Part shown: in pieces, positions 12,917-26,545 of the stretch
Layout of the letters: every line of letters begins with the position of its first letter
How positions within the stretch are numbered: the first letter of the stretch is position 1
Origin: Luteolibacter pohnpeiensis
Lineage (GTDB): Bacteria > Verrucomicrobiota > Verrucomicrobiia > Verrucomicrobiales > Akkermansiaceae
Length of the DNA stretch: 64,000 nucleotides
Assembly (NCBI RefSeq): GCF_016595435.1
Contig: NZ_JAENIJ010000008.1
Span: 1-64,000, forward strand
Reading direction: 5' to 3'
Program-made: the position numbers and the translations under genes
Notes under the pieces: model-generated
Databases searched by the model: none
What the model was told of the DNA's origin: nothing
What the model saw: only the letters and a program-made list of their open reading frames with translations

Positions 12917-15451
12917 TTAGTTTCCGATTTGAGTGGTTTTCTTGGAGTCAGCATCCGTTGGGGTGGATGCTCTGCGGTAAGAATCGGGATCGAGCGTTTT
13001 CGGCTCAACGGGTCCGTCATGATTGACTTCATGATAAGCACCGATCTTTTGAATGTAGGCGATCAGGGCAATGATCTGACGTTCGGAGAAGGTGTTGACG
13101 AGTTCTGCCGAAGTTGCCTTGGGCATGCCGTCGTAGGAAACTGGAGTTCCGCCCTCGAACAATGACTTGGCGATTTCCATGGCCTGTTCACGGGCTTTCT
13201 CGTCGATGTCATCCTTGGTCATCGCTGGGTATGGGTAAGGAACCCCGAGGTTGCGGAGAGCTTTGATTTTCGATGGCAGTGCCTTGAAGTCGGTCTTGGC
13301 CTCATACAGGTGGGCGTAGGAGGGCATGTTGGAGTCTTCGTTCGCCCAGCGTGGATTTCTGAAGTGGAACCAGTGCCACTTGTTATCGCGTTTACCGCTG
13401 CGCATCAGATCGCTGCCTTTGACCAGATCGCCACCTTCGCGTGCCAAGTCCGGACCGGTGCGCTTGGAGCCCCATTGGAACGGGTGGTCGTAGATTGATT
13501 CACCCAAGTGCGAGTAGTCGTCGGAATGGCCGGCGCGACCATAGCGCATCACGTCCGGCTTCAAGGTGCGGATCATTTGCGAATGGCAGTTGTAGCAACC
13601 TTCCGAGACGTAGATGTCGCGACCTGCGAGCTCCAGTGGAGTGTAGAGTTCCTGCAAGCGGCCTTCGACGTTTTTATCGGTGTTAACGATCAGGGAAGGA
13701 ATGATTTGAGCGGAACCACCGATGGCCGCAGCGATGCCGACCAGAACCGTGAACGGTAGGTAGTTGTGGAGCAGGCGTTCGTGCCAGTCGTCCCATTTTT
13801 TCGGATCCTTTTTGAAATCGACGATGGCTTTGATCGCGATGATGACCGCCAGTCCAAGAGCCGCCTTGTCCGCGTGTGGGGGCAGGAAGAACCACAGGCA
13901 AATGAGCAGAATGAAGATCAGGATGTGAAGCACCGGATCGTTGGTGAGGCCTTTGCTCAGAGCCAGGCGATCGTAGGTTTTTTCTGGAACATTGACTTCC
14001 ACCGTGTCGTCCACCGGCTTACCGGAACGGGCGGTCATCACGATGTTGATTGCACACAAGATGAAGCCGAACAGGAAGAAGCCACCGCCAATGCTGCGGA
14101 AGATATATTCCGGCTGAATCTTCTTCAGCGTTTCAACAAACTCATACTTCATGCTGATGCCATCCGGATTCAGCGTGCCAAGCATCAAGCCTTGCGTGAT
14201 ACCAGCGGCCCACATGGAACCGACGTAGATCAGGATGCCGACGAGCCCGATCCAGAAGTGGAAATCGGCCATGGTTTTTGACCAGAGTTTGGTTTTCCAA
14301 AGGCGAGGGGCGAGCCAGTAAAACATGCCTGCTGCCATGAAGCCGTTCCAGCCCAAGGCACCCGAGTGAACGTGACCAATGGTCCAGTCGGTGTAGTGCG
14401 ACAGGGCATTCACCGGACGAATCGCAAGCAGTGGCCCTTCAAAGGTGGCCATGCCATAGAACGTGACGCCTGCGGCGAAGAATTTCAGCACCGGGTCGGT
14501 GCGAAGTTTATCCCAAGCTCCGCGGAGGGTGAACAAACCATTGAGCATGCCGCCCCACGATGGTGCCCACAGCATGAGTGAGAAAAGCATCCCGAGCATC
14601 TGCATCCAGTGTGGCAGCGCGGTGTTGAGCAAGTGGTGAGGGCCGGCCCAAATGTAGATGAAGACCAACGACCAGAAGTGAATGATCGAAAGCCGGTAGC
14701 TGTAAACCGGGCGGTTCGCGGCTTTCGGCAGGAAGTAATACATGATCCCCAAAATCGGAGTCGTGAGGAAGAACGCGACGGCGTTGTGACCATACCACCA
14801 TTGAACCAAAGCATCCTGAAGTCCGCCGAAGATCGGGTAGGAGTGAAGCAGTGAGGTTGGGAGGGAAAGGTGATTGACGACATAAAGCATCGTCACGGTT
14901 AGAATGGTGGCGATGTAGAACCACAGTGCCACGTAGAGGCTCGGCTCATTGCGTTTGGCCAAGGTCCAGAAGAAGTTGACGGCAAAAACCAACCAGATCA
15001 CCGCGACAGCAACATTGATCGGCCAGATCAGCTCGGCGTACTCCTTGCCACGGGTGAAACCTGCGGGAAGCGTGATAGCAGCCGAGAGGATGATCAGCTG
15101 CCAACCCCAGAAGTGGATTATTGACAAGATATCAGACGCAGTCCGGCATTTGCACAGCCGCTGGGTCGAATAATAAATCCCGGCGAACATCATGTTGCCG
15201 ACAAAGGCAAAGATCACCGCATTGGTATGCAGCGGCCGCAAACGACCAAATGTTAGATATGCCACTCCATCCCCTTTGAATAAGCCAAAGGTGAGCGTTT
15301 CGAGGAATTTGCCGTTCATTTGCCACCAGGAGAGCTGGGTGGCGCAGATCAGGCCCACCAGCATGCCGATGAGGCCCCACGCGATGGAGGCGATCATGAA
15401 TCGGCGGACGCTGGCGTCGTCGTAGGTTATGGTCCGAGTGTTGGTCGTCAT
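12917..15451 (-). CDS. ccoNO: Fused cbb3 cytochrome c oxidase subunits I and II (CcoN-CcoO)
   Basis: The 844-aa protein joins the catalytic haem-copper subunit to the mono-haem CcoO subunit. The CcoN part (about 1-480) has PLHTNAVIFAFVGN, the CuB ligand regions WWYGHNAVAFF and GPHHLLNT, and the haem ligand segment IGHVHSGALGWNG. The CcoO part starts after about residue 520 and has CYNCH near 620, the HLGESIYDHPFQWGSKRTGP block and NMPSYAHLYE. It reduces O2 to water and pumps protons in the inner membrane. The fusion is known in Verrucomicrobiota and Bacteroidota. The ATG overlaps the stop of the upstream ccoS-like gene as ATGA. Confidence 0.96.
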   Translation of the reverse strand: MTTNTRTITYDDASVRRFMIASIAWGLIGMLVGLICATQLSWWQMNGKFLETLTFGLFKGDGVAYLTFGRLRPLHTNAVIFAFVGNMMFAGIYYSTQRLCKCRTASDILSIIHFWGWQLIILSAAITLPAGFTRGKEYAELIWPINVAVAVIWLVFAVNFFWTLAKRNEPSLYVALWFYIATILTVTMLYVVNHLSLPTSLLHSYPIFGGLQDALVQWWYGHNAVAFFLTTPILGIMYYFLPKAANRPVYSYRLSIIHFWSLVFIYIWAGPHHLLNTALPHWMQMLGMLFSLMLWAPSWGGMLNGLFTLRGAWDKLRTDPVLKFFAAGVTFYGMATFEGPLLAIRPVNALSHYTDWTIGHVHSGALGWNGFMAAGMFYWLAPRLWKTKLWSKTMADFHFWIGLVGILIYVGSMWAAGITQGLMLGTLNPDGISMKYEFVETLKKIQPEYIFRSIGGGFFLFGFILCAINIVMTARSGKPVDDTVEVNVPEKTYDRLALSKGLTNDPVLHILIFILLICLWFFLPPHADKAALGLAVIIAIKAIVDFKKDPKKWDDWHERLLHNYLPFTVLVGIAAAIGGSAQIIPSLIVNTDKNVEGRLQELYTPLELAGRDIYVSEGCYNCHSQMIRTLKPDVMRYGRAGHSDDYSHLGESIYDHPFQWGSKRTGPDLAREGGDLVKGSDLMRSGKRDNKWHWFHFRNPRWANEDSNMPSYAHLYEAKTDFKALPSKIKALRNLGVPYPYPAMTKDDIDEKAREQAMEIAKSLFEGGTPVSYDGMPKATSAELVNTFSERQIIALIAYIQKIGAYHEVNHDGPVEPKTLDPDSYRRASTPTDADSKKTTQIGN

Positions 15452-15603
15452 TTTCTTGGTTCTGGAGAAGGATCATCTAACGGCAGCAAGGAATCGCGCT
15501 CCGGGGACGAATCCTTCGAGCGCCTGATTTCCAAGGCGAAGCAGACAATGAAAACTCCTGCCAGGCAGGAGCTGATGAGAATGGTGAGAGCGATCACGTT
15601 CAT
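15448..15603 (-). CDS. ccoS: CcoS-like 51-aa membrane microprotein, first gene of the cbb3 operon
   Basis: The minus strand gives 51 residues beginning MNVIALTILISSCLAGVF and ending PEPRK. An N-terminal membrane helix (about 3-24) is followed by EIRR and an acidic Pro-rich tail (LLPLDDPSPEP). CcoS proteins are about 50-70 aa, have one N-terminal helix and a short charged tail, and are required for cofactor insertion into CcoN. Its TGA overlaps the ccoNO ATG. Placement at the operon front rather than beside ccoI is unusual, so the name is probable, not certain. Confidence 0.7.
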   Translation of the reverse strand: MNVIALTILISSCLAGVFIVCFALEIRRSKDSSPERDSLLPLDDPSPEPRK

Positions 15604-15702
15604 AATTGAACGGTTGCAGAATGCATTCTAACCAAAATGGGGTCAACGCACCTTTTGCCAGAGATTGTGCATATCTTTTTTGCTCGATAGGAACTGAGCA
15701 AA

Positions 15703-15728
15703 ATTTGACTAGCCAGCGCGTTGTCAAA
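15703..15728. promoter_or_regulatory. Inverted repeat TTTGAC-N14-GTCAAA between divergent genes
   Basis: TTTGAC at 15703-15708 is mirrored by GTCAAA at 15723-15728. It lies about 100 bp upstream of the cbb3 operon start and about 17 bp upstream of the ATG of the plus-strand gene. The geometry suits a dimeric regulator, or TTGAC could be a -35 element. It is not the FNR/ANR consensus (TTGAT-N4-ATCAA). Confidence 0.35.
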
Positions 15729-15744
15729 CGGTTCTATTTATTGT

Positions 15745-17151
15745 ATGAAACTTCTGATTTCCAGTCTGATGATGACTCTCTTTTTGAGCATCCTTCCCAT
15801 GAGCGGGGCGCAAATCACTCTGGAGATGCTCAAAAATCAGATGCAGCCTGTCGCTGCTGATTTCGAAAGAATGGAGATCGGCGATGCGAAAGAACCGCAT
15901 TCGTTCAAGATTCAGTTAGGTGATCAACCGATCAAACTGGGTGATGACTATTTTGATGGCTTTCGTTTCACGTGCCCCAAAATCGAAAAGGGTTCGGATT
16001 TTGTTTGGTATTTCAATGCGCCTGCCAATTGGGGCCAGTGGTATTTGATTCAATCCGAAGGAGATCCCCGGGAATCATTCAAAAATTGGTTAGATGGAGA
16101 TAAACTTTATAGCTCCTACGACGCAGCGGGGGAGAAAGATCGGTTACGCATCCTGCAGACCCTTGACGGCTCCTATTTCGAACCCGGAAAGGAATACATC
16201 TTATGGTTTTCCCGCACCCATGGAGAAGCCGCAGGAGAACTCCGGGGTGTGTTGGGTTTCGCCAAATCCAGCGATCAGGAAAAGAAGTCCTGGGATTATG
16301 ATGATATCGAAAAGGCGTTGAATTTGAAACCATTGCCACCTGCAGATCAAATGACAGAACTTGGGAGCCGCGGTGGCTCAATCCTGCTTGATGAAGACTT
16401 GTTCGATCCGAGAGATGCTGCTGACCGGATCGATGCGCTGTTTTTCTCAAAAAGGCGAACAAGTCACTATCGAGGGGGATACTTCATGACGATGTCGACC
16501 TCCGTGCCTCCTTGCCGGAAAACTCCTCCACTCGAGGCGATTATCGCAAAATATGGTGAACCGGATTTCGTCCGCAGCTTGGAGGAAAAAGACCGCAGGC
16601 TGGACAATGACGATGACGAGGAGGAAGAACCGACCGTTACTTACTACTACGACTATTTCGGATTTGAGGTGGATCCTAAGAATCAAGCAAAAGTGGTCGA
16701 AGCGGTCGAAGCCCAAGCCAATGATTTTTCCAAACTTCGATCGAAAGTAACGGGTAAAACCATCGGAGTAATGCCGATGGAAAATCTCACCACTTTCTAC
16801 GATGAAGGGAAGGAAGTCGGACGGGTTTACGGGTTAAGTGAGGGCCCAGAGGTTCCAGTGGTCATTCAGGAACCTCCTGTGGGAAAATACGAAATGAAGG
16901 GTAGAACGTTGCTGAACCGAGGCAGTGGCGAGTGGGTGGAAGAATACCTTTTTCCCGATGGAACCGTGAAAACGCGCTGCCATTACGAGAAAAATCTCAT
17001 CACCGGCAAGGCGGAGGGATTTTACCCGAGTGGCAAACTCTATTACACGCTCAGTTACAAGGATGGCCAGTTGGACGGACCTGCTGTCAAATACGATGAG
17101 AATGGAAAGGAGATCGATCGCCAGAGTTGGTCAGAAGGACAGCGCCAGTAA
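15745..17151 (+). CDS. Secreted protein with C-terminal MORN-like repeats
   Basis: The protein is 468 aa. A signal peptide is clear (MKLLISSLMMTLFLSILP, cleavage probably after SGAQ or nearby). The body is charged and has no recognised enzyme motif. The acidic run NDDDDEEEEP lies near residues 285-300. The last about 80 residues contain two or three MORN-2-type repeats: GEWVEEYLFPDGTVKT, GKAEGFYPSGKLYYTLSY and GQLDGPAVKYDENGKE. Such repeats occur in surface and YwqK-like proteins. The ATG at 15745 is chosen because the signal peptide starts there. It is divergent from the cbb3 operon and has no clear functional link to it. Confidence 0.8.
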   Translation: MKLLISSLMMTLFLSILPMSGAQITLEMLKNQMQPVAADFERMEIGDAKEPHSFKIQLGDQPIKLGDDYFDGFRFTCPKIEKGSDFVWYFNAPANWGQWYLIQSEGDPRESFKNWLDGDKLYSSYDAAGEKDRLRILQTLDGSYFEPGKEYILWFSRTHGEAAGELRGVLGFAKSSDQEKKSWDYDDIEKALNLKPLPPADQMTELGSRGGSILLDEDLFDPRDAADRIDALFFSKRRTSHYRGGYFMTMSTSVPPCRKTPPLEAIIAKYGEPDFVRSLEEKDRRLDNDDDEEEEPTVTYYYDYFGFEVDPKNQAKVVEAVEAQANDFSKLRSKVTGKTIGVMPMENLTTFYDEGKEVGRVYGLSEGPEVPVVIQEPPVGKYEMKGRTLLNRGSGEWVEEYLFPDGTVKTRCHYEKNLITGKAEGFYPSGKLYYTLSYKDGQLDGPAVKYDENGKEIDRQSWSEGQRQ

Positions 17152-17224
17152 GGTCTCGTCTTTACAATCTGCTCAGGGTTTCGGTTGGGCATTTGGAAAT
17201 AATGGTGGATGGTAAGGCCGTCGC

Positions 17225-18643
17225 ATGCCTGCCACCCGATCTTCACTGACTGAGGGACCGATCCTCAAGTCGCTTGTTTCCCTTTCGTTGCCAATCGTTT
17301 TTGCCAACGTTTTGCAGTCCATGTATCAGCTCACCGATACTTTTTGGGTGGGACGTCTGGGTGGAAACGCGGTTGCAGCAGTCTCAGTGAGTTTCCCGCT
17401 GATTTTCCTGATGATTGCACTTGGCGGAGGCTTTACGGTGGCCGGCTCGACTCTCGTTGCTCAATACACGGGAGCGAAAAATTCGAAAATGGTGAATCAC
17501 GTCACTTCGCAAACGCTGATGATCGTGTTTTTTGCCGCAGCTTGCCTCTCGTTGCTGGGCTTTCTCTCATCGGGTGCCTTATTGCGTTTGATTGGAGTGG
17601 AAAAAGTCATTTTGGGTGATGCGACCACGTATCTCCGAGTCTCTTTCTCTGGGTTGATCTTCCTGTTTGGTTACTTCATGTATCAATCGATCATGCGGGG
17701 TCTGGGAGAGGTGAGGGTTCCACTTTATATCGTATCGGGCACGGTGTTGCTCAATCTTTTGTTAGATCCGCTTTTCATCTTCGGTTGGGGACCGATACCG
17801 GGCTCGGGAGTTTCCGGGGCTGCTTATGCGACCATTGGAACCCAGTCGATTGCCATGTTGACCGGCTTCTGTGTCTTGTTCAGCGGGCGCTATGGCATTC
17901 ATTTTCGCCTCGCCGGATTCCGGCCGGATTTTGGCATGATGAAGCGAATCCTCAAACTGGGCCTGCCCGCATCGATCGAACAATCGACACGCGCTTTAGG
18001 CATGTCGATGATGATCTTTCTGGTTGCAGGGTTTGGAACACTTACCGTTGCGATCTTTGGGATTGGCTCGCGGATTTTGAGCTTTGTCATCATCCCGGCG
18101 CTGGGTTTATCGATGGCCACCGCTACACTGGTCGGCCAAAACATTGGAGCGGGGAATTTGCCGCGTGCGAACTCAATTGCCAGACTTAGCGCACTGGTCG
18201 CGTTCGCCGCTCTGACCGTGGTGGGCATACTCTGTTTCTGTTTCGCCCAACCGTTAATCCGCTTCTTTGTTCCATCGGATGAGGCCGTGGTTTCTGGGGC
18301 AGTGATCTTTTTGAAAACCATGGCGCTTTTCTTCGGTCTGATTGGTGCCCAGCAGGCATTGATTGGGGCGTTCCGTGGATCTGGAAATACCTTTATGAGC
18401 ATGATGCTCGCGATTGTTTCCATGTGGGTATTCCAATTTCCGTTGGCTTATATTTTATCCCGACACACCGGGATGGGACCTCGTGGAATTTGGTGGACCT
18501 ATCCGATTGCCAATTTTCTATCGACTGCCGTTACTCTGGCCTGGTTCCTTCAAGGTAGCTGGCAGAAGAAACGTATCACGGAAGAGGCGCCCGAAGAAAC
18601 TTCCGTGAGTGAAGAGATTATCACGCAGGAAGGATTACGCTGA
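17225..18643 (+). CDS. MATE family efflux transporter
   Basis: The 472-aa protein has twelve predicted membrane segments and the MATE/DinF hallmarks: ILKSLVSLSLPIVFANVLQ near the N-terminus, QLTDTFWVGRLGG at about 35, LLDPLFIFGWGPIPGSGVSG near 180, and the half-repeat PASIEQSTRALGMSMM near 250. MATE proteins expel cationic drugs or small metabolites against Na+ or H+. The stop is directly abutted by the stop of the convergent PPTase gene (no gap). It could export the product of the adjacent NRPS, but the opposite orientation means this is only a neighbourhood inference. The C-terminal tail is acidic. Confidence 0.92.
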   Translation: MPATRSSLTEGPILKSLVSLSLPIVFANVLQSMYQLTDTFWVGRLGGNAVAAVSVSFPLIFLMIALGGGFTVAGSTLVAQYTGAKNSKMVNHVTSQTLMIVFFAAACLSLLGFLSSGALLRLIGVEKVILGDATTYLRVSFSGLIFLFGYFMYQSIMRGLGEVRVPLYIVSGTVLLNLLLDPLFIFGWGPIPGSGVSGAAYATIGTQSIAMLTGFCVLFSGRYGIHFRLAGFRPDFGMMKRILKLGLPASIEQSTRALGMSMMIFLVAGFGTLTVAIFGIGSRILSFVIIPALGLSMATATLVGQNIGAGNLPRANSIARLSALVAFAALTVVGILCFCFAQPLIRFFVPSDEAVVSGAVIFLKTMALFFGLIGAQQALIGAFRGSGNTFMSMMLAIVSMWVFQFPLAYILSRHTGMGPRGIWWTYPIANFLSTAVTLAWFLQGSWQKKRITEEAPEETSVSEEIITQEGLR

Positions 18644-19327
18644 TCACGGAGTGAAATGTTGTATCTCCAGTTTGGCGACATTTGCTGAAGAAATCATGGC
18701 AGTATAATCTGCTAGATCGGGATGTTCAATACGCCGAATGCACTGACTCGATAAGCCGGGTAGCAATGCGTCGCAATGGGCATTTGCATGGGTTCCCGAA
18801 AACCTAATTTTCAAACTCTCTGGTGCTTGGAAAAGACCAACACCCATTGCTTTCAGCACTGCTTCTTTCGCTGTCCAGATTTCGAGTAATTGCTGGCAGC
18901 GGAGGTTTTTCTGAGATGATAGTGTGGCGATTTCCTCCGGGTGACAGAAAAAATCGACGCATTCCAAAAGCTCTCGACCCCGGATGCCGGGTTCTAAGTC
19001 GACCCCAATTTCGCGATCTGTGGAGACTGCAAAGATCGCTAAATGATCGCAGTGAGAAAGATTGAAATAGAAGTTGTTTTCAGGCTTTTCCAACATGGGC
19101 TTACCCATCGCTCCGGTAATAATCGCGATGCTTTCCGGAGATTGATCTAACATTCCTCCCAGGATCATACGCATGGCAGCACGGTAGGAAATCCATGGCT
19201 CAGCATGTTTTTTAAAAATAAATCCGTCAGCGCGTTCCATTTCATCGGATGAAAGCACAGCTCTGGCTTGATCCATTGGAATCATACCTGGAGTGATCAG
19301 GAATACTTGGATGACGGGTGAGGCCAT
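18644..19327 (-). CDS. 4'-phosphopantetheinyl transferase (Sfp type)
   Basis: The 227-aa enzyme loads phosphopantetheine from CoA onto carrier-domain serines. Diagnostic motifs are IGVDLEPG near residue 105 (metal-binding Asp and Glu) and IWTAKEAVLKAMGVGL near 150. The N-terminal ISYRAAMRMILGG helix and KPENNFYFNLSHCDHLAIFA segment (residues about 75-100) are also family-like. Its ATG overlaps the NRPS stop codon (TAATG), so it is translated with that gene and most likely serves its two carrier domains. Length is typical of Sfp/EntD-like enzymes. Confidence 0.93.
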   Translation of the reverse strand: MASPVIQVFLITPGMIPMDQARAVLSSDEMERADGFIFKKHAEPWISYRAAMRMILGGMLDQSPESIAIITGAMGKPMLEKPENNFYFNLSHCDHLAIFAVSTDREIGVDLEPGIRGRELLECVDFFCHPEEIATLSSQKNLRCQQLLEIWTAKEAVLKAMGVGLFQAPESLKIRFSGTHANAHCDALLPGLSSQCIRRIEHPDLADYTAMISSANVAKLEIQHFTP

Positions 19328-22300
19328 TAATCGAGAAGTGTCGGACTGCGAGGAATACGTGCAGCAAGTTCGGTGCCCAGTGAATCTGCGTTTTCCGGAT
19401 CAAAGATTGTTAGATGCCTGCCGACGACACGAACAACCTCGACTCCTTCTGCCGCATAATTCGTCCACCCGTAATCTTCTGGCCATGCGATCTTGTCGCT
19501 GGAAGTAGTAGCGCGAAAGAGCACGATGCGACCTTGGAAAAGTCGAGGATGATGAGATTGCATGGCGCGAAGGTTTTCTTCTCGAACTTGAATGCGGCGT
19601 TGCTCACTGTGCGGCTCAGTGGTGTGTATGCCCCGCACTTTGCGTTGACCTGATTTCACATGCCAATGAGTTTCGATACCATCTACCATGCGTCGGATAA
19701 GCTTTGCTAAACGCGCCGGGATTGTGAGATTTTGATGTTGAGACCAGAAAACCTTCAATCGCTCAAGCGGTGAGTAATAACGATAGGGCTCCGATAAGTT
19801 ATAGGTGTCAAATAGGCCAAGGAAGTCGACTTTGTGGCCTGCTGAGGTCAATTGGCAGGCGATCTCGTGAGCAACAACCCCGCCAAAGGAGTAGCCAGCA
19901 AGTCGGTAAGGGCCAGCAGGCTGCTGAGCCTGGATTTCTTGGATGTAGGAACCTGCTATGTCTTGGATGCTCGTAAGGTGCGTGTGTTCGGGGCTGCTGA
20001 GATCGTGTGATTCGATCGCAAACATAGGAAGATCATCCGGTAATGATGCTGTTAGATTGCGATAAAATAAAATCCCGCCATCGCCGCCATGGATGCAGAA
20101 TAACGGAGGCTGATCGCCACCATCAGATAATGCAACGAGGACACCTGGACTTGCATGATCTTCGTAGCGCTCGAGCAGGGCGGCCAGATCTGCCAGGGTA
20201 GGTGCATCCAACAAAAGGGAGAGGGGTGCCAGAATTTTCAATTCTTGGTGGATTCTGGAAAACAGTTGCAGAGCAAGCAACGAATGTCCTCCCAGTTGGA
20301 ACCAATTGGATTCACGGCCAATATCGTGTGTGCCTAGTAGATCACTCCAGATTTGTTTCAGTGTCTTCTCGGTGCGAGTTGCGACCGGGGAGATTTTCGC
20401 ATTTTCCACAGTCGCAGGCAACGGCAGGCTGCTGACATTTGTTTTGCCGTTCTTATCTAATGGAAATGCTTTCAGTATTCCAATACCCGCCGGAATCATG
20501 TAGCTCGGAATCTTGCTGGAAAGAAATGAAATGACTTCCTTGGGTGTCAGTTTCGAACCATCTACGGGAATCACCCAAGCATACAATTGCCTGCTCGTGA
20601 CTTCATCTCCACGAGCTTCTGCTTTTGCTGAGGCAATTTGTGAATGGGATAAAAGGGCTTCTTCGAGTTCTGCTAGTTCGACGCGGTAGCCGCGAATTTT
20701 GATCTGTGAGTCGATTCGACCAATCAATAGGATAGACCCGTCCATAAGATATCGGCACCGGTCGCCGGTTCGATAGATTCGACCTAAATCCGGATATTGA
20801 ATGAAGGAACTAAGGGTGAGCTCCGGGTTTTTGTGATACCCGATTGCAAGTCCATCGCCTGCTAGATAGAGCTCACCTGGCATGCCAATCGCGACAGGTC
20901 GCAATTCCTGATCAAGGATGTATCCGGTGGTATTCGCAATGGGCTTGCCGATGGGAATCGTCGGTCGAGTAAGATCCGATTCGGTGACATGATGGCTGGT
21001 GGAAAACGTGGTGTTTTCCGTTGGTCCGTATCCGTTGATTAACTTGGTATGCGGCAACGTTTTGATTGCCAGGCGGGCATGTCGTGGAGACATGATATCG
21101 CCGCCTGAAATGAGGTAGCGGACATTGATGAGTTTTTCTGGATGATGTTCGATCATCAACTGGAAAAGCCCGGCCGTAAGCCACAGGATGGAGATTTGTT
21201 CTGAATGGATGGACTGCGCTAGTGTGTCCAGATTGCTAGAAGGAGGTGATAGAACAAGTTTTGCTCCATTCAGTAGCGCTCCCCAAATCTCGAATGTTGC
21301 CGCATCGAATGATAACGAAGCGGTTTGAAGAAAGACGTCCGTTTTCGAAATTTCGACATATTGTTGTTGCCGAACCAGGCGTGTGACAGCTCGTTGGGGG
21401 ATGACGACACCTTTGGGCGAACCCGTGGTGCCACTGGTATAAAGGAGGTAGGCGGGGGATTCGCCATCGGCGTGGACAGGAAATTCTACGGCGCTTTCTC
21501 TGCGGATCACGCTCTCGGAATCGATGTTGATTCGATCCGGCGAAAATGATTCGGATTCAGTAGATCCAGCATGCAATATGATTCGGATATCGGCATGCTC
21601 CAGTATGAACTGCTTGCGGTTCACCGGGAGCGATGGATCGATAGGAACGTATGCGGCGCCGGTGTGGAGAATTCCGATCATGGACGCGATCCACTGGAAC
21701 GATGAGCCGCCAGTGATAGCGATGAAATCGCCCTGTTTGGCGCCGTGTTCCCTGAGGTCTGAGGCGATTTTCCACGATGCATCTAGTAGTTCGCGGTAAG
21801 TCCAGGTATTTCCCTCATGCAAAATCGCCGGGCTGTTAGGATGGGCATTCGCGACTTCCAAGAAGAGAGTCGAGAGAGATTCCTGCCTTGGATAAGGAAT
21901 GAGACATGGCGGAAATTCTGCAGGTGGAATTCCTATCCGAACGTCTTTTCCGGGTTTACTTGACTCGACTAGTAAATCTGAAAGCAAAGCCGTGAATTGC
22001 TCGCCAAGCCGTTGAATGGTGGATTTGGTGAATCGACCAGGATCATAGTCGAGATACGCGGTGATGCTGTCGGTGGAATCGATGAGGCGAAGTGTGAGGT
22101 CGAATTTAACTCCGGAAGGTTGTGGATAGAATGGCTCAATGCTTAAGTCGCCGATTTTTGGGTTAGTTGTTTCTTGATGGAGGACGAACGCGACTTGGAA
22201 AATTGGGTGACGATCCGCTTTTCGAGGCGGGTTGATGCATTGAACCAATTCCGGAAAGGAAATACTTTGATGCTGGATCGCTGCGGCGACCTTGGTCGAC

Positions 22301-25011
22301 GTGAGTTTGGTTAGATCGCTGAAATTTTCATCACCCGATGTTTGGATGCGAACTGGTATCATGTTCGCAAAGTAGCCGATCAATGGCTCGAATTCAGTTA
22401 GAGTTCGGTTGGCGGTAGGTGTGCCGATGACGATGTCATCTTTACCAGTCCATCGAGCGAGCAGCGCAGCAAACGCGCTAAGAAGGGTGGTGAATCGGGT
22501 GATGGATTCGCGTTGGCAAAAGTTTCCGAGCTCCACGAGCAGATGTCTCGGGAGCTGGAGCTCAACCATGGATTCAGACCGCCTTCGTCCGTTGGTGGGT
22601 AAGTGGTCGAGCGGTAACTCACAAAATGGCGGAGCATCGCTGAGTTCTTGTCGCCAGTATTCCCGAGCTGCATGATGATCACGTTGGTTATCCCAGATTG
22701 CAAAATCATTGAACTGAATTGCCATCGGCTGCGGGTCTTGATTTCCATGTTGATAGTAAAAATCAAGTTCTTGCATGAATACATCTATCGACCATTGATC
22801 GGAGATGATGTGATGAAAGCTGACCAATAACGCATGATCAAGCTCGCCCATCTTGAAAATGATAGCTCTGAACAATGGGCCGTTTTCCAGATCGAATACA
22901 AAGGCTGCCGTTTCTTTGGCAATTCGTCTGAGTTCGAAGGATTGGGCGTCCTCTTGTTCCAGGCTCAAATCATGAAACTCCAAACAAAATGGCTTTTGTT
23001 GAAGTGCGGGTCCTTGCTCGGGAATGATCAGCCGCAGAATATCGTGTCGGTCAATGATGCGAGCTATGGCGCTTTCAAGCTTTTTTAGATCGAGCAACCC
23101 GTGAATGCGTCTTCCCTCAGTTAGATTGTAGTCGGTTTCATTTGGATGTGATTTTTCCAACATCAATAGCCCTTGCTGGGCTCTCGAAAGCGTCAGACGA
23201 GTGCCTGGCTGGTGAATCAGTGATGCGGCATGGGATGGTGATTGATCCGCGATCGCGCGGATCATTTGCTCGACACTTGGATTTCTAAACAATGCATCTG
23301 TTGTTAGATGGATTCCCAATGCTTGATTGATCCGATTAATCGCCCGCATCGCGGTCAATGAGTGGCCTCCCAAATGGAAGAAATTCTGACGTGGATCTAT
23401 GGAGTGATTGCCTAGAACTTCGCCGAAAATAGCGGCGACCTTTTGGGTGATCGGATCCTGTGACTCCTGTGACAACACTGGGAATGTTTTGAAGTCCCAT
23501 TGACCTGGCTCAGGCATGGCCTTCCGATTAATTTTACCGTTCGGCGTCAGCGGCATTCGGTCCAGTTTTGTGAAACTGGAGGGAAGCATGTAAGTGGGCA
23601 GGGAGGCTGATAGTTCTTCGCGGATTTTTTCCGAAACGGGCGAATGGTCACCTGTGAAAAAAGCGGCAATGTTTTTTTCGCCATCAGGAGATTCATGCAA
23701 AATGGCAACGGACTCCGTGATGCCATCAATCATCCGCATGGCGGACTCGATTTCTCCGAGTTCAATGCGAAATCCACGCAGCTTGACCTGCTGATCGATT
23801 CGCCCGAGGCAATCGATTTTTCCATCTTCACGCCAGCGAGCCAGATCACCGGTGCGATAAACTTTTTCGTAACTCCCGTCTGCTAATCGCAGCTGGAAGA
23901 ACTTTTCCGCAGTGAGTTTTGGCTGTTGATAATAGTCGATCGCCAGTCCTGCTCCTCCGATGCATAATTCGCCAATTTCTCCACCAGTAACCGGGCGGTC
24001 ATGGTCATCTAACAGATAGATTGTTGTATGATCAATTGGCCGACCAATCGATATATCTGAATCGCGGACTTGATCGACCGTGGACCAAATCGTCGCTTCG
24101 GTTGGTCCGTAAAGATTCCAGAGTTCACCACATCGAGGAAGTAATTCGGTGGCGAGCGCGGGTGATAATGATTCTCCGCCACAGAGGATTTTGAAATCAG
24201 CATGGCCTGTCCAACCGGCTTCGACCAATAGTCGCCAGGTCGCGGGCGTGGCCTGCATCACGTTGGCTTTAGAATCGATTAGTAACTGCTTCAGAGCTAG
24301 GCCATTGCTGGCAGTTGCGCGATCCGATAGAATGATTCGTCCGCCATTGACCAAGGGCAGGATCAGTTCGAGAAAGGCAATATCGAACGATAGGGTGGTG
24401 ACCGCGACTAAGCGGTCATTTTTGGTGAAACCCGGCAAGCGGGACATCGATTGCAAGAGATTGATGCACGCTGCGTGGGAAATACGAACGCCCTTGGGCA
24501 GGCCTGTTGAACCGGAGGTGTAGATCAGATAAGCGCAATCTGTTTGATTAGATCGATGCCCCGTGAACGTAGCGGGAAATGCAGAGATCACCTCTGAATC
24601 GTCATCCAAGCGGATCTGTTGGATCGAGTCGGTTGGGAATGCATCTTCACTTGCCCGTTCGGTGATCACCCATTGAGCTCCGGAATCTTCCAGCATGTGG
24701 GAAATCCGGAGTGGGGGAAAGGACGGATCGATCGGCAAGTAGCTGGCTCCAGTTTTTAATACCGCGAGGAGCGCGATCAGCATGTTCGGTGAGCGCCCAA
24801 GACCTAATGCGATGATTTGGCCACACCCAATTCCAGCTTTCGCCAAATAGCCTGCAAGCTGGTTGGTTCTTACCTCTAATTCAGCATAGGAGAGATGCAG
24901 CCCTCCAAACTGGAGTGCGATCGCATCATCTGGTTGCAAGTTACATGTTCTGGAAACCCATTCGTGAACCGAACCTGCTCTCGATGAGAAGGTTGGAGCT
25001 GGGTTAGCCAT
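19327..25011 (-). CDS. Bimodular nonribosomal peptide synthetase (A-T-C-A-T-TE)
   Basis: The 1894-aa protein has a complete two-module order. A1 spans about 20-500 (YTSGSTGLPKG near 165). T1 has GGHSLTAMR near 550. C spans about 600-1020, with HHIISDQ near 733. A2 spans about 1050-1500 (YTSGTTGSPKG near 1190). T2 has GGHSLLAL near 1573. TE spans about 1620-1890, with GYSFGG near 1706 and a late His in VGRHLTIF. Reading the ten specificity positions by eye gives D-I-L-Q-L-G-L-I-W-K for A1, which matches the glycine code I recall, and D-A-F-W-I-G-G-T-F-K for A2, which matches the valine code I recall. The predicted product is thus a Gly-Val dipeptide or its cyclic form. There is no starter C domain, epimerase or reductase. 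It is followed directly by its PPTase. Confidence 0.96.
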   Translation of the reverse strand: MANPAPTFSSRAGSVHEWVSRTCNLQPDDAIALQFGGLHLSYAELEVRTNQLAGYLAKAGIGCGQIIALGLGRSPNMLIALLAVLKTGASYLPIDPSFPPLRISHMLEDSGAQWVITERASEDAFPTDSIQQIRLDDDSEVISAFPATFTGHRSNQTDCAYLIYTSGSTGLPKGVRISHAACINLLQSMSRLPGFTKNDRLVAVTTLSFDIAFLELILPLVNGGRIILSDRATASNGLALKQLLIDSKANVMQATPATWRLLVEAGWTGHADFKILCGGESLSPALATELLPRCGELWNLYGPTEATIWSTVDQVRDSDISIGRPIDHTTIYLLDDHDRPVTGGEIGELCIGGAGLAIDYYQQPKLTAEKFFQLRLADGSYEKVYRTGDLARWREDGKIDCLGRIDQQVKLRGFRIELGEIESAMRMIDGITESVAILHESPDGEKNIAAFFTGDHSPVSEKIREELSASLPTYMLPSSFTKLDRMPLTPNGKINRKAMPEPGQWDFKTFPVLSQESQDPITQKVAAIFGEVLGNHSIDPRQNFFHLGGHSLTAMRAINRINQALGIHLTTDALFRNPSVEQMIRAIADQSPSHAASLIHQPGTRLTLSRAQQGLLMLEKSHPNETDYNLTEGRRIHGLLDLKKLESAIARIIDRHDILRLIIPEQGPALQQKPFCLEFHDLSLEQEDAQSFELRRIAKETAAFVFDLENGPLFRAIIFKMGELDHALLVSFHHIISDQWSIDVFMQELDFYYQHGNQDPQPMAIQFNDFAIWDNQRDHHAAREYWRQELSDAPPFCELPLDHLPTNGRRRSESMVELQLPRHLLVELGNFCQRESITRFTTLLSAFAALLARWTGKDDIVIGTPTANRTLTEFEPLIGYFANMIPVRIQTSGDENFSDLTKLTSTKVAAAIQHQSISFPELVQCINPPRKADRHPIFQVAFVLHQETTNPKIGDLSIEPFYPQPSGVKFDLTLRLIDSTDSITAYLDYDPGRFTKSTIQRLGEQFTALLSDLLVESSKPGKDVRIGIPPAEFPPCLIPYPRQESLSTLFLEVANAHPNSPAILHEGNTWTYRELLDASWKIASDLREHGAKQGDFIAITGGSSFQWIASMIGILHTGAAYVPIDPSLPVNRKQFILEHADIRIILHAGSTESESFSPDRINIDSESVIRRESAVEFPVHADGESPAYLLYTSGTTGSPKGVVIPQRAVTRLVRQQQYVEISKTDVFLQTASLSFDAATFEIWGALLNGAKLVLSPPSSNLDTLAQSIHSEQISILWLTAGLFQLMIEHHPEKLINVRYLISGGDIMSPRHARLAIKTLPHTKLINGYGPTENTTFSTSHHVTESDLTRPTIPIGKPIANTTGYILDQELRPVAIGMPGELYLAGDGLAIGYHKNPELTLSSFIQYPDLGRIYRTGDRCRYLMDGSILLIGRIDSQIKIRGYRVELAELEEALLSHSQIASAKAEARGDEVTSRQLYAWVIPVDGSKLTPKEVISFLSSKIPSYMIPAGIGILKAFPLDKNGKTNVSSLPLPATVENAKISPVATRTEKTLKQIWSDLLGTHDIGRESNWFQLGGHSLLALQLFSRIHQELKILAPLSLLLDAPTLADLAALLERYEDHASPGVLVALSDGGDQPPLFCIHGGDGGILFYRNLTASLPDDLPMFAIESHDLSSPEHTHLTSIQDIAGSYIQEIQAQQPAGPYRLAGYSFGGVVAHEIACQLTSAGHKVDFLGLFDTYNLSEPYRYYSPLERLKVFWSQHQNLTIPARLAKLIRRMVDGIETHWHVKSGQRKVRGIHTTEPHSEQRRIQVREENLRAMQSHHPRLFQGRIVLFRATTSSDKIAWPEDYGWTNYAAEGVEVVRVVGRHLTIFDPENADSLGTELAARIPRSPTLLD

Positions 25012-25244
25012 TTCGTAGAAAATCTGTAGGAGTAGGCATGATCGGGGGGAGTGGATGCCGCGCTAGGTTGATATCCTATGCCTGAAATCGCCTTCGGCAA
25101 CAAGCTGGGATCAAACGAAATAGAAAATCTTTCCCATCCAATCCACCCAGTGGGTGCCGAAGTCGACTGGATTCTGGGTTGTCATTCGCCATGCAGACGA
25201 TTAGCTTTTCCAGGCTTTGCACCCACACCAGCAAGCAGTTGAGT

Positions 25245-25673
25245 ATGAATTCGATGGCCGAATACCAACAGTTTCGTGATCAGGAGCACTTAAACATGCT
25301 CGCGATTTTCCATTATGTGGTGGCTGGTATTTTGGCCCTGGCTTCATGCATCCCGGTGATTCATTTAACTTTCGGACTTTTCCTCGTTTTCAATCCTCCA
25401 GTTACAAAAGGAGCTGAAGCTTTTCCCCCGGAGTTTGGATGGTTTATTGTCATCATAGCTTGCTTTTTCATCACGATCGGTTGGGCGGTTGCCATTGCCA
25501 CCTTTCTCTCCGGCCGCTTCATTTCAAAGCGTCAGAACCGGATGTTCAGTTTTGTCGTGGCGTGCATGATATGTCTTTTCATGCCATTGGGGACCATACT
25601 TGGCGTCTTCACGCTGATTATTCTCAGTCGTGACTCGGTGGTCGCACTTTACAACGATCGCCGGATTGTCTGA
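25245..25673 (+). CDS. Small three-helix membrane protein of unknown function
   Basis: The protein is about 142 aa from the ATG at 25245. An upstream alternative start at 25179 adds 22 residues with no conserved look. Three long hydrophobic segments lie at about 17-44, 61-92 and 100-125, the last including GTILGVFTLIIL. The last residues are polar (SRDSVVALYNDRRIV). This LGxFTLxxL-type ending is common in small DUF-type membrane proteins of Gram-negatives. It is divergent from the NRPS with about 230 bp between them. No link to peptide synthesis can be seen. Confidence 0.7.
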   Translation: MNSMAEYQQFRDQEHLNMLAIFHYVVAGILALASCIPVIHLTFGLFLVFNPPVTKGAEAFPPEFGWFIVIIACFFITIGWAVAIATFLSGRFISKRQNRMFSFVVACMICLFMPLGTILGVFTLIILSRDSVVALYNDRRIV

Positions 25674-25891
25674 CTGGGCGACTTCGATCCCTATCAGGGA
25701 ATCTCCGGTTTCGCAGGGCTTGTCGGCTTTGAGGCGCACGCACGGCGAGAAGGGTGCCGCTTGCTGGCGAACGTTGGATTTGCACGTCGATGTGATGTGC
25801 AACTGAAGAATTCTCTACAAATTCAGAATTGCCACCGAGAACAAAAAATACAACAGTGTTTATAAATCGAAGTGCTGATCTCTGAACTGAA

Positions 25892-26545
25892 ATGAGCGTT
25901 CCTCCCCCCAAGAAAGAAAAGAAATACCGAGCAAGATCGATGGCGGCAGGCGCTGTGTTTTGTCCGTCGTGCGGCTACCGCCTCAAGGATCGTGATCGAG
26001 ACCATGAGACTGGCTGTTGCCCGGCTTGTGGCTTTTCAGGCCAGGATACCATGAGCCTATTTCCTTATCTGCCTCCCTTGTTAGAGCAGGTGACAGATAC
26101 AGCGAATCTGTTTTCGGCCGCCGATGTGAAGCTCATTGAAAAGGAGATCAAACGCTTCCAGCGAGCCTTTCCTCAGTTTCATTGGCGAGTTGCGACTGCA
26201 AACTTGAATGAACATGAAAGCCCGAGCTTGTTTGCATTCTGGCTGCTGAATGTCAGTGGCTTGGGGAGTGACGAACGAATGGAAAATCGGCCATGGACGA
26301 TCCTGCTGGTGATTCTGCGGGACGGGAGCGTGGCCCTTGCTCCGGGATACGCCGCAGAGATTTGGTTGGCTGCAGATCGATGGGGTAAACTGCTGGCGGA
26401 GCTCAATCGCGATGTCCGCAGGCGAAACTACGGCCCTGGCGTTCGTGATTTCATTGCACGTGGAGCGTTGCTTATGGGGAAGGCATGGACGAGCGCCAAC
26501 CGAATCGTTCAGCGGAAGTCAAAACGACCATCGTTCCTGTCATGA
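25892..26545 (+). CDS. Zinc-ribbon TPM-domain-like protein
   Basis: The protein is 217 aa and has two CxxC pairs at about 28-31 and 47-50 (FCPSCGYRL and CCPACGFSG), forming a zinc ribbon. A TPM-like domain follows (about 60-190): TANLFSAADVKLIEKEIKRF and the strand PWTILLVILRDGSVALAPGY are like the TPM/YgcG fold. It has no signal peptide, unlike the next gene product. Its stop overlaps the start of the next gene (ATGA). The fold was originally linked to phosphatases and also to photosystem II repair, and function here is unknown. Confidence 0.75.
   Translation: MSVPPPKKEKKYRARSMAAGAVFCPSCGYRLKDRDRDHETGCCPACGFSGQDTMSLFPYLPPLLEQVTDTANLFSAADVKLIEKEIKRFQRAFPQFHWRVATANLNEHESPSLFAFWLLNVSGLGSDERMENRPWTILLVILRDGSVALAPGYAAEIWLAADRWGKLLAELNRDVRRRNYGPGVRDFIARGALLMGKAWTSANRIVQRKSKRPSFLS

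Follow-up and report, generated by a model that had tools for sequence, protein, structure and literature searches.

The window analysed here is a stretch of 64,000 nucleotides from Luteolibacter pohnpeiensis (contig NZ_JAENIJ010000008.1 of assembly GCF_016595435.1), and the locus in question is a nonribosomal peptide synthetase (NRPS) gene on its reverse strand (19327..25011), with genes for a 4'-phosphopantetheinyl transferase (PPTase) and a MATE-family transporter next to it on one side. The NRPS open reading frame begins with ATG, contains no internal stops and encodes 1894 amino acids (aa), with Pfam matches to AMP-binding (two), Condensation (one), PP-binding (two) and Thioesterase (one). 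Pfam and motif positions give the domain order adenylation (A), thiolation (T), condensation (C), A, T and thioesterase (TE). The features of the locus are as follows.

19327..25011, reverse strand: dimodular NRPS, A-T-C-A-T-TE, 1894 aa (Pfam, single open frame, core motifs)
23488..24984, reverse strand: A1, aa ~10-508, code DILQLGLIWK, Gly-type (Pfam, code alignment, tree)
23242..23460, reverse strand: T1, aa ~518-590, LGGHS at aa 547-551 (Pfam, motif scan)
21937..23214, reverse strand: C domain, aa ~600-1025, HHIISDQ (Pfam, C-domain alignment and tree)
20416..21909, reverse strand: A2, aa ~1035-1532, code DAFWIGGTFK, Val-type (Pfam, code alignment, tree)
20158..20379, reverse strand: T2, aa ~1545-1618, LGGHS at aa 1573-1577 (Pfam, motif scan)
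19330..20124, reverse strand: TE, aa ~1630-1894, GYSFG at 1706 (Pfam, motif, TE alignment, alpha/beta-hydrolase TE fold)
18644..19327, reverse strand: PPTase, 227 aa, ACPS and AASDHPPT_N matches, GVDLE and WTAKEAVLK motifs (Pfam, NCBIfam, motif scan)
17225..18643, forward strand: MATE-family efflux transporter, convergent with the PPTase gene, candidate exporter (Pfam, NCBIfam)

A motif scan of the NRPS located, in A1 and A2 respectively, A3 at residues 164 and 1191, YGPTE at 301 and 1328, YRTGD at 385 and 1413, A8 at 403 and 1431, and the NGK that holds the A10 Lys at 491 and 1521, in addition to LGGHS at 547 and 1573, HHIISD at 733 and GYSFG at 1706. Because A and T each occur twice and C once in the same protein, and the initiation module has no C domain, the enzyme is a dimodular type I NRPS, in which the A3, A5, A7 and A8 motifs, the A10 Lys, the carrier Ser, the HHxxxD of the C domain and the GxSxG of the TE are all intact. 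A sequence-only reading of this DNA had described a complete, self-contained A-T-C-A-T-TE synthetase at 19327-25011, which the intact frame, the Pfam order and the core motifs confirm. None of the literature matches listed concerned this enzyme; verrucomicrobial NRPSs in general have already been described (PMC8692599). The NRPS stop codon overlaps the PPTase start codon by one base: ATTAATGG. The genome contains two ACPS-family matches, this PPTase and, elsewhere on the contig, a frame of 131 aa that is probably a short AcpS-like protein; the former is therefore a PPTase beyond the AcpS-like one, and is predicted to act on the NRPS carriers. A PPTase match was present in 10 of 18 fetched stretches, drawn from relatives and from the genome of the NRPS itself. 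No match to PF03621 was obtained across the whole genome, so that the earlier statement that no MbtH-like gene lies nearby holds genome-wide; the same account of the setting overlooked the PPTase gene that overlaps the NRPS gene and the MATE gene next to it.

The ten positions that we take to constitute the specificity code, located by motif anchoring and by MAFFT alignment with relatives, read DILQLGLIWK in A1 and DAFWIGGTFK in A2, which reproduces letter for letter the codes previously read by eye. Each differs by one residue from a code given in PMC12283262, where DILQLGMIWK is the code of four Gly-activating domains and DALWIGGTFK is named as a Val-domain sequence as well as being one of the most frequent codes in the Leu/Ile/Val group. 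Neither exact code was found in the literature searched; one paper, with a near Gly code, came from searches with the A2 string and with shortened forms of the A1 string. In a tree of 64 A domains (duplicates L010 and L062 and matches of at most 330 aa or at most 150 bits omitted), A1 belongs to a clade that has support of 1.0 and the ten other members of which all read DILQ[LF]G[LV][VI]W, and A2 groups with terminal domains from C-A-T-TE ends, mostly DA[LF]WLGGTF. The assignment of a Gly-type A1 and a Val-type A2, also made in the sequence-only reading, is thus backed by code and clade together, strongly for A1 and more loosely for A2 (nearest-node support 0.54), and Gly followed by Val is the best substrate prediction. 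In a PDB sequence search both A domains matched chains of linear gramicidin synthase subunit A best, with A1 scoring 282 bits against its second A domain and 237 against its first, and A2 scoring 244 bits against both, a result not decisive for substrate. Residues 10-477 of the 479-residue A1 query align to Gramicidin synthetase 1 (1amu); because this alignment spans 467 chain residues, a large insert is absent from A1, and the possibility of a Gly module with a MOX or methyltransferase insert was rejected.

The locus therefore probably encodes a self-contained dimodular NRPS with its PPTase alongside, in which A1 is predicted to activate Gly and A2 to activate Val, and from which the TE would release Gly-Val. 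In the order of action that we infer, the PPTase (18644-19327) would place phosphopantetheine on T1 and T2, glycine would be activated by A1 and loaded onto T1, valine would be activated by A2 and loaded onto T2, and the C domain would couple both to give Gly-Val-S-T2, after which the dipeptide would pass to the TE serine and be released. Export of the product may fall to the MATE protein encoded next door, a link suggested by adjacency. Because the glycine amine would be free and a capping domain is absent in front, a linear dipeptide or a diketopiperazine is the likeliest product. A genome search found two C domains in total, the second in a polyketide synthase (PKS)-NRPS on contig C11; thus there is no spare C domain to cap glycine. 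The layout A-T-C-A-T-TE/CT is named as typical of diketopiperazine formation in PMC11942691.

Several observations weigh against a Gly-Val synthetase of this kind. Val and Ile domains can share codes according to PMC12283262, which also gives DAWWIGGTFK, one residue from the A2 code, for dehydrovaline and DVFWLGGTFK, two residues from it, for Ala; the node nearest to A2 in the tree is the one with support of just 0.54. The C motif is HHIISDQ, with Gln for the Gly of the usual HHxxxDG, and among 95 aligned C domains (loci after L098 included) the final residue of the motif is Gly in 83, Ala in 6, Glu in 4 and His in 1, with Gln in this NRPS alone. In a C-domain tree that omits the duplicates L010, L062, L072, L076, L080 and L084, C matches of at most 350 aa and loci after L098, this C domain stands alone on a branch of 1.49 with no close kin in the tree, two branches being longer. 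A close full-length relative of the NRPS was found neither in 73 genomes of the genus (E <= 1e-200, up to six candidates scored per genome) nor in 387 sampled genomes of the phylum (E <= 1e-180, two candidates per genome), thresholds that weaker or lower-ranked relatives could escape. No MATE match was present in the other NRPS loci searched.

The TE bears on which product would be released. Its Ser, Asp and His, which presumably form the catalytic triad, are invariant in nine of nine aligned TEs, and it is 44-53% identical to eight TEs of relatives, which terminate C-A-T-TE proteins. A structure model of moderate confidence (mean predicted local distance difference test score, pLDDT, of 77.3) has the alpha/beta-hydrolase TE fold, and the best PDB matches in a fold search, including NocB-TE, Pks13-TE and EntF, are of differing chemistry (root-mean-square deviation ~5-10). 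Sequence and fold of the TE do not separate hydrolysis, diketopiperazine formation and oligomerisation. Gramicidin S and enterobactin synthetases join units on the TE before release, and it is conceivable, though rather unlikely, that the TE here joins two or more Gly-Val units to give cyclo-(Gly-Val)n or an oligomer; this outcome is nested in the explanation preferred above, and thus the odds of the two overlap. A complete TE, related to those at the ends of C-A-T-TE proteins and present instead of a reductase, would permit oligomerisation, but it carries no sequence mark of an iterating TE, and neither the moderate model nor the chemically varied fold matches point to one. A search with a TE alignment was limited to the best 80 of 163 relatives; among these, the closest TEs in titled records come from Verrucomicrobiaceae and Akkermansiaceae metagenome-assembled genomes, Luteolibacter marinus and Haloferula sp., among others, in accord with the Verrucomicrobiota of the sequence-only reading, and some metagenome-assembled genomes in the list bear titles such as Akkermansia muciniphila. 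TEs 49-50% identical to that of the NRPS also occur in L081 and L082 (titled Hydrogenophaga) and in L078 (titled Betaproteobacteria), of which L078 and L082 carry the code DALWLGGTFK; horizontal transfer and mis-binned contigs are possible explanations.

The relatives of the NRPS are mostly parts of larger assembly lines. A scan of named genomes with the protein by itself gave no match. Among the matches listed for 118 genomes, 62 genomes had some match at E <= 1e-30, the only one-piece match over the whole length was the NRPS's own gene, G097 matched residues 28-1407 at 35% identity, and the strongest other matches were C-A-T-TE frames at 38-43% identity; the best two-module match was to G019 (36% identity, residues 26-1740). 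Such C-A-T-TE subunits of the genus and family (for example L038, L039, L048, L049, L052, L053 and L054) have the code DALWLGGTF, and L038, L039, L048 and L049 also have a PPTase. They start with a C domain and, where the upstream region is in view, follow an NRPS frame (a C+A frame in L038, L039, L046, L048 and L049), whereas the NRPS of the window has its own Gly-type starter and nothing upstream. In L049, the one locus in which upstream frames were scanned with Pfam, the preceding frame contains ketosynthase, acyltransferase, aminotransferase, C, an A domain with a methyltransferase insert, and T. In L048 and L049 the C-A(Val-type)-T-TE protein directly follows a module with the code DILQLGVIW, in L038, L039 and L046 the module preceding the C-A-T-TE protein reads DLFNNALTY, and in L038, L045 and L046 a DILQLGLVWK module and a C-A(Val-type)-T-TE protein adjoin on one strand. 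Since a DILQLGVIW module precedes a Val-type end in some lines, the NRPS agrees with them in its two final predicted residues and has a TE related to theirs, minus the upstream part. A1 is related to Gly-type A domains of these assembly lines, and A2 and the TE to the ends of such lines; the C domain shows no kinship of this sort. Because the TE resembles those that end the long lines of relatives, the NRPS may be a pared-down line, and a reshuffled enzyme is a fair reading of its trees, which do not prove it. A more speculative proposal, which we put forward tentatively, is that a PKS-NRPS line was cut down to its Gly-Val-TE-PPTase tail, that its TE today forms a small Gly-Val compound, cyclic or oligomeric, and that L037 and L040 are parallel minimal "X-Val" synthetases in Verrucomicrobiota.

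These lines also raise the alternative that the NRPS is a truncated PKS-NRPS remnant that works with parts encoded elsewhere, so that Gly-Val would be the tail of a larger acylated product. The order of a DILQLGVIW module, C-A(Val-type)-T-TE and PPTase in L048 and L049, with more upstream that in L049 includes the PKS-type domains, and the DILQLGLVWK module beside C-A(Val-type)-T-TE in L038, L045 and L046 are what it would lead one to expect, but no C domain precedes A1 at the start of the protein, the one other C domain found in the genome is part of a 3485-aa frame complete with a TE of its own, and the genes just upstream are on the forward strand (25179-25673, without a Pfam match, and two genes with TPM domains). 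We consider such a remnant improbable. Marginally less probable again is a gene that is in frame but non-functional, or an inactive C domain that leaves aminoacyl loading only, which would suit the unusual HHIISDQ, the long C-domain branch and the lack of a close orthologue in the 73 and 387 genomes, but not the retention of the other core motifs sought over 5.7 kb without frameshifts or of the PPTase motifs, and 11 of the 94 other aligned C domains likewise lack that Gly; activity is described in a review (PMC11546977) for a C domain whose motif reads HQxxxDM. In L037, L040, L042 and L043 the C domain before the Val-type module has HHSI[IVM]DE, not HHxxxDG, and these C domains cluster with support of 1.0.

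A Gly-Val dipeptide synthetase remains the preferred reading, and other enzymes of its layout exist. Two A-T-C-A-T-TE proteins of ~2000 aa were among the loci examined, L037 (2015 aa, same genus, with a PPTase beside it) and L040 (1977 aa, same order), so that the suggestion that few such systems are described in Verrucomicrobiota needs care; both have the second code DAFWLGGTFK, but their first codes (DLTKVGEVGK in L037, DIFNNALIYK in L040) are different and not Gly-type. Among the matches listed they are 36% and 35% identical to the NRPS, respectively; their TEs are weakly similar to its TE (61-62 bits), and their C motif is HHSI[IV]DE. A third A-T-C-A-T-TE protein, in the Bacteroidetes record L102 (2031 aa), adjoins another C+A frame and may therefore belong to a larger line. 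A 1951-aa frame of L051 (5610-11462, reverse strand) has two AMP-binding domains, a C domain, two carrier matches and a TE, with DILQLGLVWK in the second A domain; its first AMP-binding domain presumably resembles a fatty-acyl ligase, and the protein may thus make an N-acyl-glycine.

The nearest published layout is that of AusA-AusB of Staphylococcus, with a TE here replacing the reductase. The second residue of AusA is Val, which fits the names phevalin and tyrvalin. AusA-AusB (aureusimine/phevalin, Staphylococcus aureus) resembles the NRPS and its PPTase in the A1-T1-C-A2-T2 start and in the cognate PPTase of the ausAB cluster (PMC12153313), and the NCBIfam model aureusi_NRPS aligns to residues 17-1153 of the NRPS with a score of 1088.8, the cut-off being 2500. 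The C-terminal domain of AusA is a reductase and its products are pyrazinones, whereas the NRPS ends in a TE and its first residue is predicted to be Gly; with a C-terminal PF00975 Thioesterase match, no reductase match and a score below the NCBIfam cut-off, it was not classed as an AusA-type pyrazinone synthetase. The lubC-lubD genes of a sponge metagenome clone, as described in PMC3397433, likewise comprise two modules ending in Te and followed by a PPTase gene, with a predicted dipeptide and a putative efflux gene, but start with a C domain (C-A-T-C-A-T-Te) and are predicted to use aromatic residues. Fungal AacA (aspkyncin) shares the A-T-C-A-T core and makes a cyclic dipeptide, but is described in PMC11942691 as an enzyme without a TE and with other substrates. 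Two papers on pyrazinone synthetases (PMC10979478, PMC12144821) were set aside, the enzymes described there ending otherwise, in A-T-C-A-T-KS-AT-ACP-TE or in larger lines.

The end of the MATE gene adjoins the PPTase stop. Its product scores 460 bits against the model of SolL, the solanimycin exporter, below the cut-off of 780. At E <= 1e-80 the gene of the window was the sole match among the 73 genomes of the genus, and at E <= 1e-60 there were matches in 26 of the 387 phylum genomes, the source genome included; within ~1.5 kb on each side of seven fetched MATE homologues there was no NRPS or PPTase match. In the other direction, a forward-strand gene at 25179-25673 is followed by the two TPM genes. 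The G+C content at third codon positions is 0.50 for the NRPS and 0.46 for the PPTase, compared to a mean of 0.59 (standard deviation 0.065) for 27 chosen genes of the window; because two other window genes are equally low (0.47 and 0.51), recent transfer is not claimed. Overall G+C is ~0.50 across 15000-26000, a stretch that spans the NRPS, PPTase and MATE genes and the open reading frames at 15721-17151 and 25179-25673, compared to 0.55-0.57 in much of the nearer flanks. A search of the 73 genus genomes for an empty site with the flanking CcoNO and BamA located both in three single-contig genomes (G004, G049 and G068), ~0.4-1.5 Mb apart. CcoN and CcoO of cbb3 oxidase occupy one 844-aa frame (12917-15451, reverse strand; COX1 15-456, FixO 557-805), which 43 of the 73 genus genomes match at E <= 1e-150. 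The same genome has a second megasynthase on contig C11 (L035, 9452-19906, reverse strand), a 3485-aa frame with ketosynthase, acyltransferase, aminotransferase, C, A (DAFWLGGTFK), three carrier matches and a TE. Neither of the two C11 stretches that were fetched (L035 and L036) contains a PPTase match, and the PPTase of the window may therefore serve both megasynthases.

The locus thus holds an ordinary intact dimodular NRPS and an adjoining PPTase gene, a tidy system and not a new kind of one; the prediction of Gly-Val has a good basis in sequence, and a Gly-Val enzyme would leave the general view of how NRPSs work unchanged. If the prediction of Gly-Val is true, an enzyme of 1894 aa that has an adjacent PPTase, needs just two amino acids that are among the simplest and comes from a genome without an MbtH match would offer a small natural test bed for the chemistry of NRPS release, and it would illustrate how parts of longer lines can give rise to a short synthetase.

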